NCBI RefSeq assembly: GCF_002119805.1
Contig: NZ_CP021059.1
Coordinates: 620,001-684,000 of the forward strand
Origin: Macrococcoides canis
GTDB lineage: Bacteria > Bacillota > Bacilli > Staphylococcales > Staphylococcaceae
Length of the DNA stretch: 64,000 nt
Direction of reading: 5' to 3'
Translations under genes and position numbers: made by a program
Notes under the pieces: generated by a model
Databases searched by the model: none
Told to the model about the DNA's origin: nothing
The model's input: only the letters and a program-made list of their open reading frames with translations
Shown: in pieces, positions 13,485-40,164 of the stretch
Layout of the letters: every line of letters starts with the position of its first letter
Numbering within the stretch: position 1 is the stretch's first letter

Positions 13485-13491
13485 CACTATG

Positions 13492-13989
13492 TTATCTATT
13501 TGTAATTGTTTCTGGATATAGATCATGATTCATCAGGCGGTATGATGCCATTTCTTCATATTTAGTTCCTGGGCGCCCGTAATTTGTATACGGATCGATC
13601 GAGATTCCGCCACGTGGTGTGAATTTTCCCCATACTTCAATATAATGAGGATCCATAAGCTCGATAAGGTCGTTCATTATGATGTTCATACAGTCTTCAT
13701 GAAAGTCTCCATGGTTTCTGAAACTGAACAGATAAAGCTTTAATGACTTTGATTCAACCATCTTGATATTCGGTATGTAGCTGATATAGATAGCTGCAAA
13801 GTCAGGTTGCCCTGTAATCGGGCATAGACTCGTAAATTCAGGACAGTTGAACTTAACGAAGTAGTCGCGTCCTTGATGTTTATTGTCAAATGATTCTAGA
13901 ATCGAAGGATCATATTCGTATAAATATTTATTGTTCTGGTTACCGAGTAATGTAATATCTTGTAATTCTTCTTTTTGTCTTCCTGACAT
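13492..13989 (-). CDS. queF: NADPH-dependent 7-cyano-7-deazaguanine (preQ0) reductase QueF
   Basis: QueF reduces the nitrile of preQ0 to the amine of preQ1 in queuosine synthesis. The 165-residue protein is the short, unimodular Bacillus-type form. The catalytic Cys56 and Asp63 lie in [11 protein letters not shown], and the QueF motif follows as [16 protein letters not shown] with Glu79. The open frame extends upstream to 14049, but AGGAGG before the ATG at 13989 fixes the start. It lies 13 bp after the DMT transporter gene on the same strand, so they are probably one operon. No queCDE genes are in the window. Confidence 0.95.
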
Positions 13990-38412: not shown

Positions 38413-38468
38413 GCTGTATGACGATATTTCTGAAAAATTACGGACTATGTTAGAGTCATAACGTTTAT

Positions 38469-38485
38469 ATTACAAAAATATTACA
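38469..38485 (-). promoter_or_regulatory. WalR box upstream of the LysM-NlpC/P60 gene
   Basis: Read on the minus strand this is TGTAAT-N5-TGTAAT, a full match to the WalR consensus TGTWAH-N5-TGTWAH. It ends 26 bp before an extended -10 (TGG then TATATT at 38512-38517). WalKR controls cell-wall hydrolase genes in staphylococci. Confidence 0.8.
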
Positions 38486-38570
38486 TTGGTAAATATTATG
38501 TAACTCTATGGTATATTATGTCTTGTAGAAATTTACTAAGAACATTAAAACTCAGGAGGCAACACATATA

Positions 38571-39530
38571 ATGAAAAAAGCATTAGTTACGATTGCAGGG
38601 ATCACAGCGGTTACAGGAGTAGCTTCACAAGCATATGCAAGTGAACATCATGTTCAAGCAGGTGACACATTATGGGCGATTGCACAAGAGAATGGTACAA
38701 GTGTAGATGCACTTAAAGCATTAAACAACTTAAACAGCGATCTTATCCTAGTTGGACAAACATTAAAGGTAGAAAATACAGATACTTATACAGTTAAACA
38801 AGGCGATACATTACAATCAATCGCATCTCAATTTGATTTAACAGTTAATGATATTATGGCATGGAATAACTTAACATCAGAAACGATTGAAGTCGGTACA
38901 GAATTGAAATTAACAGCACCAGTTGCTGAAGTTCAGTCAGAATCAGTACAACCTATTACAGAGACAAGCGCTCCAGTACAACAAGCAGAAGCACCAGTAC
39001 AAACTGCAGCTCCAGTACAGCCTGTAGCTCAACAAGCTTCAGCACCAGTACAAACAACAGTTCAATATGCAGCACCAGTACAAACTGCAGCACCGGCAGC
39101 ACAATCATACGAAGCGCCAGCAGCTCAGTCATACGAAGCGCCAGCACAACAATCATATAAAGCACCAGCGAAAAGCTATAACGCACCTGTAAATGGTAAT
39201 GTGGCACAAATCGCAAATAGTGTAGCGGCTGGAAAATCATATGTTTACGGTGCAAACTCTGCATCTGCAGTTGACTGTTCAGCATTTGCTCAACAAGTAT
39301 TAGCAGCGCAAGGTAAATCGATTCCGCGTACTACATATGCTCAAATGGCAGCAGGTACACGTGTTTCAACACCACAAGCAGGAGATTTAGTATATTTCAA
39401 TGGTGGAAGTCACGTTGGAGTTTACATTGGTAATGGTCAAATGATCGACGCTTTAAATCCATCTGAAGGTATCGGACAACGTTCAGTAAGCTATGTGAAT
39501 GGAACGGTTGACGGTTATTATAGATTCTAA
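38571..39530 (+). CDS. Secreted LysM-NlpC/P60 peptidoglycan hydrolase
   Basis: This 319-residue protein has a cleavable signal peptide (about residues 1-23, cut near AYA). Two LysM repeats follow (about 25-68 and 72-115, each with QAGDTL or KQGDTL). A low-complexity Ala/Pro/Gln linker (about 118-205) repeats APVQ and SYEAPA units. The C-terminal NlpC/P60 domain has catalytic Cys236 in DCSAF and His281 in GSHVGVYIG. It binds peptidoglycan and cuts stem peptides. The WalR box upstream fits a growth-phase autolysin. In S. aureus the nearby hydrolase is of CHAP type. Confidence 0.92.
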   Translation: MKKALVTIAGITAVTGVASQAYASEHHVQAGDTLWAIAQENGTSVDALKALNNLNSDLILVGQTLKVENTDTYTVKQGDTLQSIASQFDLTVNDIMAWNNLTSETIEVGTELKLTAPVAEVQSESVQPITETSAPVQQAEAPVQTAAPVQPVAQQASAPVQTTVQYAAPVQTAAPAAQSYEAPAAQSYEAPAQQSYKAPAKSYNAPVNGNVAQIANSVAAGKSYVYGANSASAVDCSAFAQQVLAAQGKSIPRTTYAQMAAGTRVSTPQAGDLVYFNGGSHVGVYIGNGQMIDALNPSEGIGQRSVSYVNGTVDGYYRF

Positions 39531-39563
39531 AAAATCACGGGGCATATGTCCCGTGATTTTTTA
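39528..39563 (+). terminator. Terminator after the LysM-NlpC/P60 gene
   Basis: AAAAAATCACGGG pairs with CCCGTGATTTTTT around GCATATGT; the stem overlaps the stop codon. Confidence 0.88.
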
Positions 39564-39637
39564 GTCTTAACATTTCATTTGAAGTTGCAATCATTATGTA
39601 ACAATCTGTTATTTTATGTTAGTTATATTAATCGTTT

Positions 39638-39654
39638 ATTACATGTAAGTTACA
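39638..39654 (-). promoter_or_regulatory. WalR box upstream of the CHAP gene
   Basis: On the minus strand this reads TGTAAC-N5-TGTAAT, matching the WalR consensus. It ends 26 bp before TAATAT at 39681-39686, which is again preceded by TGG. The spacing equals that of the box at 38469. Confidence 0.78.
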
Positions 39655-39720
39655 TTGAAATGTAGCCTTTTTTTATGTGGTAATATCTATTTAGTTAATA
39701 AAACGACCGGAGGATATTAC

Positions 39721-40164
39721 ATGAAAAAAGTGTTACTTTCAATCATTGCAGTAATCATGCTAGGGACAGCAACAGAAGCAATACATCCAGACAGTGAACA
39801 GGCACATGCCGCTTATTATAATCCCATAAAGAAAGCTGGCTATAATTATTATTATAAAGGAAGCTGTGTATATTATGCGTTCAATAGACGCGCACAACTT
39901 AATCGTCCTGTAAGCAATAATTGGAACAGTGCGAAATACTGGCCATCCAAAGCACGAAGAATGGGCTATAAAGTGAGTCGCACACCTGTTTATGGCGCGG
40001 TCATGATTTCTCAGACGGGCTACCATGGTCATGCTGCAGTTGTAGAACGTATAAATCGTAATGGAAGTATTCTCGTATCTGAAATGAACTTTCCACGTAA
40101 TGGCGTGAAGACTTATAGAACGATTTCAAAAGCTCAGCGTTCTCAGTTTGAATATATCTACTAA
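39721..40164 (+). CDS. Secreted CHAP-domain amidase/endopeptidase
   Basis: The 147-residue protein has a signal peptide cut near AHA (about residue 30), followed by a single CHAP domain. Catalytic Cys49 is in GSCVYYAFNRR and His104 in HGHAAVVE with Glu109, the expected triad order. It resembles the C-terminal half of SsaA-like proteins and has no cell-wall-binding repeats of its own. GGAGG precedes the ATG at 39721. The WalR box and position beside another hydrolase suggest joint use in wall remodelling. Confidence 0.9.
   Translation: MKKVLLSIIAVIMLGTATEAIHPDSEQAHAAYYNPIKKAGYNYYYKGSCVYYAFNRRAQLNRPVSNNWNSAKYWPSKARRMGYKVSRTPVYGAVMISQTGYHGHAAVVERINRNGSILVSEMNFPRNGVKTYRTISKAQRSQFEYIY

Follow-up and report, generated by a model that had tools for sequence, protein, structure and literature searches.

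Two adjacent wall-hydrolase genes have identically spaced promoter elements

The window analyzed here, a stretch of 64,000 nucleotides from the complete 2.36-Mb genome of Macrococcoides canis, contains two neighboring genes for secreted wall hydrolases, each preceded by a minus-strand WalR-type box and an extended −10 element (Table 1). Direct inspection and a pattern search found both boxes, the identical gap between box and −10, the TGG with its −10 hexamer, and the TTG straight after each box exactly where a sequence-only reading of this DNA had placed them. Both boxes are perfect matches, TGn adjoins a TAnnnT hexamer at both promoters, and the distance from box to ATG is 85 bp for the LysM-NlpC/P60 gene (box 1) and 66 bp for the CHAP gene (box 2). 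The additional half-site next to box 1 amounts to a one-mismatch box 37 bp from the −10.

Table 1. Positions of boxes, promoter elements, and genes in the window.
Feature	Position	Strand	Description	Basis
WalR box 1	38469-38485	minus	TGTAAT-N5-TGTAAT, TGTAATATTTTTGTAAT	read from sequence and pattern search
WalR box 2	39638-39654	minus	TGTAAC-N5-TGTAAT, TGTAACTTACATGTAAT	read from sequence and pattern search
TTG directly after box 1	38486-38488			sequence
TTG directly after box 2	39655-39657			sequence
Extended −10, box 1	TGG 38509-38511, TATATT 38512-38517	plus	26 bp after box 1	
Extended −10, box 2	TGG 39678-39680, TAATAT 39681-39686	plus	26 bp after box 2	
Third, imperfect half-site	38458-38463	minus	ATAACG on plus strand, 11 bp upstream of box 1	
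LysM-LysM-NlpC/P60 secreted wall hydrolase	38571-39530	plus	319 aa	
CHAP-domain secreted wall hydrolase	39721-40164	plus	147 aa	

By their domains (LysM plus NlpC/P60; CHAP), both proteins are wall-metabolism targets. The two hydrolases had been described as having different catalytic folds, which is wrong: CHAP and NlpC/P60 domains belong to one papain-like superfamily, and a second NlpC/P60 gene of this genome also matches the CHAP model weakly. Three strict boxes occur in the window compared to 0.75 expected, a number reached in 5 of 100 shuffles; by themselves the window boxes are only mildly unusual, and what stands out is the geometry. The third strict box (13490-13506) lies upstream of a minus-strand gene, presumably transporter-like, and lacks the 26-bp layout.

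The local gene order is secA, prfB, cytochrome c, LysM-NlpC/P60, CHAP, thioredoxin-like, HD-like, and uvrB, where secA, prfB, uvrB, and HD are names that we presume from the encoded proteins. The prfB, cytochrome c, LysM-NlpC, CHAP, and uvrB genes occurred all together in 11 of 25 related loci searched, and the closest named relative among the loci compared was Macrococcoides caseolyticum DSM 20597, whose CHAP protein is 89% identical. The window genome encodes WalR (model NF040534, 454 bits, cut-off 340) and WalK (model NF033092, 811 bits, cut-off 725) in one operon, followed by YycH.

Reverse boxes at 26 bp from an extended −10 in three genera

To see at which distances boxes and −10 elements occur, we collected all strict boxes (DTWACA-N5-DTWACA) from three genomes, each of a different genus, namely the window genome (46 boxes), the Staphylococcus-type genome G090 (65 boxes), and G018 (63 boxes), and counted TGnTAnnnT at every distance from 3 to 80 bp in both orientations. 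The distance of 26 bp had been fixed beforehand from the window finding, so G090 and G018, which belong to other genera, serve as tests. In the window genome, 3 of 46 strict boxes were reverse boxes (the orientation seen in the window) with TGnTAnnnT at exactly 26 bp, compared to an average of 0.16 at other distances and 0.08 expected from the background rate. The corresponding numbers were 5 of 65 in G090 and 4 of 63 in G018, giving a pooled 9 of 128 for the test genomes compared to a mean of 0.34 (Poisson tail about 1e-10, which is optimistic because paralogue rows are not fully independent). For all three genomes together, the reverse-26 bin held 12 of 174 boxes, whereas the other reverse bins had a mean of 0.49 and a maximum of 3. 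The 26-bp geometry is not a product of chance.

Eleven of the 12 reverse-26 sites precede NlpC/P60 or CHAP hydrolase genes. In the window genome these are the LysM-NlpC/P60 gene, the CHAP gene, and the only other NlpC/P60 gene found there by family search; in G090 and G018 they are five and three CHAP genes, respectively. The twelfth site (L258, in G018) lies inside an open frame and was set aside as an intragenic chance match. Such a combination of box, 26 bp, and TGn−10 had been proposed to define a regulon, and its recurrence before these 11 genes in three genomes supports a small one. The layout was found at one of the four CHAP genes scoring over the cut-off in the window genome, and a scan upstream of the other three revealed no such layout. 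In a genome outside the family, neither the reverse-26 layout nor the forward-21 layout described below was present among 20 boxes.

The box alone was rejected as a regulon marker. Strict boxes were fewer than matches to a reversed control pattern in two of the three family genomes (65 compared to 95 in G090 and 63 compared to 82 in G018, with 46 compared to 29 in the window genome), making the box a poor predictor, and most strict boxes in G090 and G018 may be chance hits.

Conservation of the layout among relatives

We compared 46 distinct upstream rows of LysM-NlpC, CHAP, and NlpC-paralogue genes from Macrococcus, Salinicoccus, and Phocicoccus, including the window and allowing boxes with at most one mismatch. 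The reverse box was at 26 bp in 36 rows, at 27 bp in 6, and at 25 bp in 1, with none in the remaining 3; three Macrococcus-clade LysM-NlpC orthologues (L038, L039, and L048) lack the layout. Among the best 30 of more than 150 CHAP family matches, 23 had a reverse box at 26 bp, corresponding to all 16 Macrococcus-clade loci (window included) and 7 of 14 loci of genus g5, the other 7 g5 loci among these best matches being without the 26-bp layout.

Promoters with a reverse box at this position are referred to here as class R, and a set of 55 distinct class R promoters was gathered because the layout was present. Over this set, box and ATG are between 64 and 178 bp apart. In 31 of the 55 promoters, the box is preceded at 11 bp by a third half-site with no more than one mismatch; 1000 shuffles gave 3 on average and never more than 9.

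In G090, a LysM-CHAP class R gene lies directly downstream of prfB, as in the window, and we take the Staphylococcus aureus gene in this position to be SAUSA300_0739. SAUSA300_0739 itself appears among the validated S. aureus WalR targets (PMC10746227). This species has 14 CHAP genes, six of which are reported to be WalKR-controlled (ssaA, SAOUHSC_00671, SAOUHSC_00773, SAOUHSC_02576, SAOUHSC_02883, and sle1; PMC3046168). The window CHAP protein likewise has 14 matches in G090, and the five class R genes of that genome probably correspond to the first five genes of the published list.

Upstream of ssaA-like genes in two genera (L232-L233 and L296-L297), we observed paired reverse boxes, at separations of 128 and 129 bp. 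TGnTAnnnT occurs at 26 bp from the near box only; at the distal box L232, the sequence 26 bp away is TATAAA, with no TGn. In a published ssaA reporter, activity fell when the distal of two boxes alone was mutated (PMC10746227). If L233 corresponds to ssaA, as appears likely, then the functional box is not the one located 26 bp from the TGn−10, which counts against the explanation we favor below.

The −35 region of class R promoters

The sequence-only reading had noted that a −35 at the TTG would be 20 bp from the −10. We found TTG after the box in 14 of 55 class R promoters, 10 of these 14 belonging to CHAP genes of the Macrococcus clade; the 13 class R promoters of Staphylococcus-type genera all lack it there. 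At 20 bp from the −10, the mean match to TTGACA was 2.56 of 6 positions, compared to 1.71 expected from composition, and 15 of 55 promoters had at least four matches. At the usual distances of 16, 17, and 18 bp, mean matches were 1.22, 1.13, and 0.78 of 6, respectively, all under the expected 1.71, and 3, 0, and 0 promoters had at least four matches; the 55 class R promoters show no −35 at 16–18 bp. The weak TTG-like element is therefore real in one lineage, where it may contribute as a weak −35 at 20 bp in Macrococcus, but as a general −35 the TTG was ruled out by its frequency overall and by its absence from the Staphylococcus-type promoters.

Transglycosylase promoters carry half-sites in the forward orientation

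Strict boxes in forward orientation were found at transglycosylase genes in all three genomes (L023, L123, and L124 in the window genome, L229 and L241 in G090, and L248 in G018). In the strict-box scan, TGnTAnnnT was at 21 bp from a forward box in 3 of 174 cases, compared to a mean of 0.47 for other bins, with another bin reaching 4. This forward-21 signal is weak alone, and the claim of a second promoter class, termed class F, rests on a gene-based test. In several transglycosylase promoters the outer half-site is imperfect.

For the gene-based test, we assembled 37 distinct upstreams from the 29 loci of a PF06737 search (L308-L336) and from L147-L149 of the window genome. Among these 37, which were picked by gene family and are related to each other, 33 carry a TGTWAH half-site whose end is exactly 21 bp upstream of TGnTAnnnT, and no other distance was represented more than 16 times. 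The four misses comprise one entry each of L147 and L308, apparently with wrong internal starts, plus L312 and L313, in which TGnTAnnnT was not found at the class F position. Of these 37 upstreams, 16 also have a forward half-site 52 bp from the −10, and 14 have one at 63 bp. These extra half-sites, roughly three and four turns of the helix farther upstream, could possibly hold a second WalR dimer.

Published work on isaA provides the sole check of the class F layout against a reported start site. The WalR site of isaA is reported at 49 nt from the transcription start (PMC6624279), and of the isaA sites the one nearest the start matters most (PMC10746227). For L241, which we took to be isaA, the layout predicts 17+21+6+5 = 49, counting from the first box base, and thus fits the published distance.

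Forward boxes also predominate at LytE-like genes in the wider Bacilli. In 29 upstreams (L338-L366, two of them from the family), several of which have doubtful starts, we allowed at most one mismatch and found the reverse-26 arrangement once (L362), whereas 10 of 13 forward matches were at 10, 21, 32, or 43 bp. This 11-bp register may reflect a wider WalR rule in Bacilli, seen here in few and partly related genomes.

A model for activation, and alternatives

We consider it probable, at roughly 80%, that both window sites are promoters activated by WalR and built to one rigid plan, class R, with the regulator positioned upstream of an empty −35 slot. In this model, a head-to-tail dimer of WalR~P would bind DTWACA-N5-DTWACA on the coding strand, or a trimer where a third half-site sits 11 bp further up. 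With the last box base 26 bp upstream of TGn-TAnnnT, WalR would lie just upstream of the would-be −35, and RNA polymerase would be held by the TGn−10 together with a WalR contact to sigma-A region 4, the alpha-CTD, or both. WalR~P would thereby replace the −35 contact, a form of recruitment, and active WalK would turn on cysteine endopeptidase/amidase genes together. Activator-dependent extended −10 promoters, as originally proposed for the window, gain support from the recurrence and conservation of the layout, with WalR as the likely activator in Macrococcus. Co-control of the two hydrolases is likewise supported. Several observations count against the model besides the ssaA reporter result: the CHAP and LysM-NlpC loci that lack the layout, the missing enrichment of strict boxes in G090 and G018, the weak TTG-like element at 20 bp in Macrococcus, the likeness of paralogue spacers, and the genome outside the family with neither layout. 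In Streptococcus mutans, moreover, VicR sites show no clear link between position and mode of regulation (PMC4168254).

The class F promoters of transglycosylase genes would be a mirror version, with TGTWAH ending 21 bp before TGnTAnnnT. By arithmetic, the center of the ACA core in class R is 28 bp, and that of the TGT core in class F 26 bp, upstream of the first −10 base, which would place the recognition helix at nearly one position, about −38 to −40 from the start, in either dimer orientation. We tentatively extend this to a single fixed WalR contact point ~26–28 bp upstream of the extended −10 that serves both orientations and is largely sorted by enzyme class, with reverse-26 at many NlpC/P60 and CHAP genes and forward-21 at lytic transglycosylase genes, although we regard this generalization as doubtful. 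Exceptions to the split by class include three g5 CHAP loci (L168, L177, and L179), whose forward boxes are imperfect; L294, whose CHAP gene has a distant forward box in addition (L295); a CHAP gene with a distant reverse box (L298); and the LytE-like genes outside the family, most of which have forward boxes. If the generalization were true, a given level of WalR~P could elicit different responses from classes R and F, and this would set the ratio between enzymes that cut peptides and those that cut glycans.

The constant spacing might instead be a legacy of shared descent, in which a single ancestral WalR promoter was copied along with the NlpC and CHAP genes and its 26-bp gap was inherited without being functionally needed. 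Several class R genes are indeed paralogues, mean spacer identity between paralogues within a genome exceeds that of shuffles in all three genomes (0.41–0.46 compared to 0.28–0.31), and single spacer pairs reach 0.70. Shared descent thus appears to contribute to the likeness of the spacers. As the full explanation we judge it rather unlikely, however, because other spacer pairs in G090 fall to 22–30% identity with no change in length, the distance from box to ATG varies widely, and the layout is shared by two enzyme families across several genera.

Two further alternatives concern the role and identity of the regulator. Extended −10 promoters can function without a −35, and the window promoters might therefore work unaided, either as plain extended −10 promoters or with the TTG serving as a −35 at a spacing of 20 bp, the WalR box being accessory or repressing. 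The TTG after both window boxes and the above-composition TTGACA match at 20 bp are compatible with this idea, but the rarity of the TTG among class R promoters speaks against it, as does the association of S. aureus WalR sites upstream of the −35 with activation (PMC10746227), and we consider it very unlikely.

It is highly improbable, in our estimation, that WalR is not the protein recognizing the boxes and that PhoP, or some other OmpR-family member whose repeat resembles that of WalR, binds there instead. The coding-strand motif DTWACA-N5-DTWACA does resemble the Bacillus subtilis PhoP box, TTWACA, and boxes of the TTWACA type are found at four genes (L029, L273, L184, and L247) that we take to encode PstS-like and Na/phosphate-cotransporter-like proteins. 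These four boxes are probably PhoP sites that happen to match the WalR pattern; none has TGnTAnnnT at 26 bp. In class R, by contrast, 48 of the 55 first half-sites and 45 of the 55 second half-sites begin with A or G; the T of a PhoP-type half-site is present in only 7 and 10, respectively, and the window boxes begin with A/A and A/G. S. aureus CHAP genes, moreover, are reported to be controlled by WalKR (PMC3046168).

Relation to known systems

At PhoB-activated promoters, the pho box takes the place of the −35 itself, whereas the WalR boxes described here lie just upstream of that position. The promoters are otherwise alike in that Escherichia coli PhoB recognizes OmpR-family direct repeats for which structural models lead one to expect strict core-promoter spacing (PMC10294691). 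Another precedent is HP1043/HsrA of Helicobacter pylori, an OmpR-family dimer that binds hexamers with a 5-bp spacer at promoters with no −35-like box (PMC5253667). The −10 of HP1043 promoters sometimes has an extended TG, and binding is immediately upstream of the −10 (PMC5253667). The recruitment model agrees with these precedents and with the published association between activation and WalR sites upstream of the −35.

S. aureus and its relatives depend on WalKR as their essential two-component system. The S. aureus WalR (YycF) regulon shares with the window the same box, the same gene families, the gene downstream of prfB with the layout (seen in G090), and activation from upstream of the −35 position. 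For S. aureus, position classes of WalR sites have been reported, with no link of orientation to the mode or size of regulation (PMC10746227); the published view is thus that position, not orientation, decides the effect of WalKR. In the parts of PMC10746227, PMC3046168, and PMC6624279 that were available, however, fixed distances of 26 or 21 bp to TGnTAnnnT are not stated. Nor were they found in the accessible literature on WalR sites, spacing, and extended −10 elements, although supplements, among them Table S4 of PMC10746227, may hold them, and the available text of the B. subtilis studies (PMC7299342 and PMC6853874) gives no distances. WalR activation of autolysin genes is a known kind of regulation; what is unusual is an exact layout across a family, partly split by enzyme class.

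The geometry first noticed in the window is correct and more general than had been suspected, and its recurrence before wall-enzyme genes across the staphylococcal family suggests a strict wiring rule for WalKR. A base-exact rule (reverse 26 or forward 21, an extended −10, and no normal −35) selects few hydrolase sites from among the 46–65 boxes per genome, many of which are chance matches. Such a rule would predict start sites nearly to the base and make the proposed contact between WalR and polymerase testable by changes in spacing.

Other strict boxes in the scanned genomes

Two further sets of strict boxes were noted. Three overlapping boxes on both strands (L002-L004) lie between divergent genes at 197449-197476 of the window genome, one of these genes being presumably acyltransferase-like. 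A strict reverse box also precedes a gene that we take to be LtaS-like in all three scanned genomes (L017, at 617864-617880 of the window genome, L204, and L255). In S. aureus, WalR has been reported to repress ltaS (PMC10746227).
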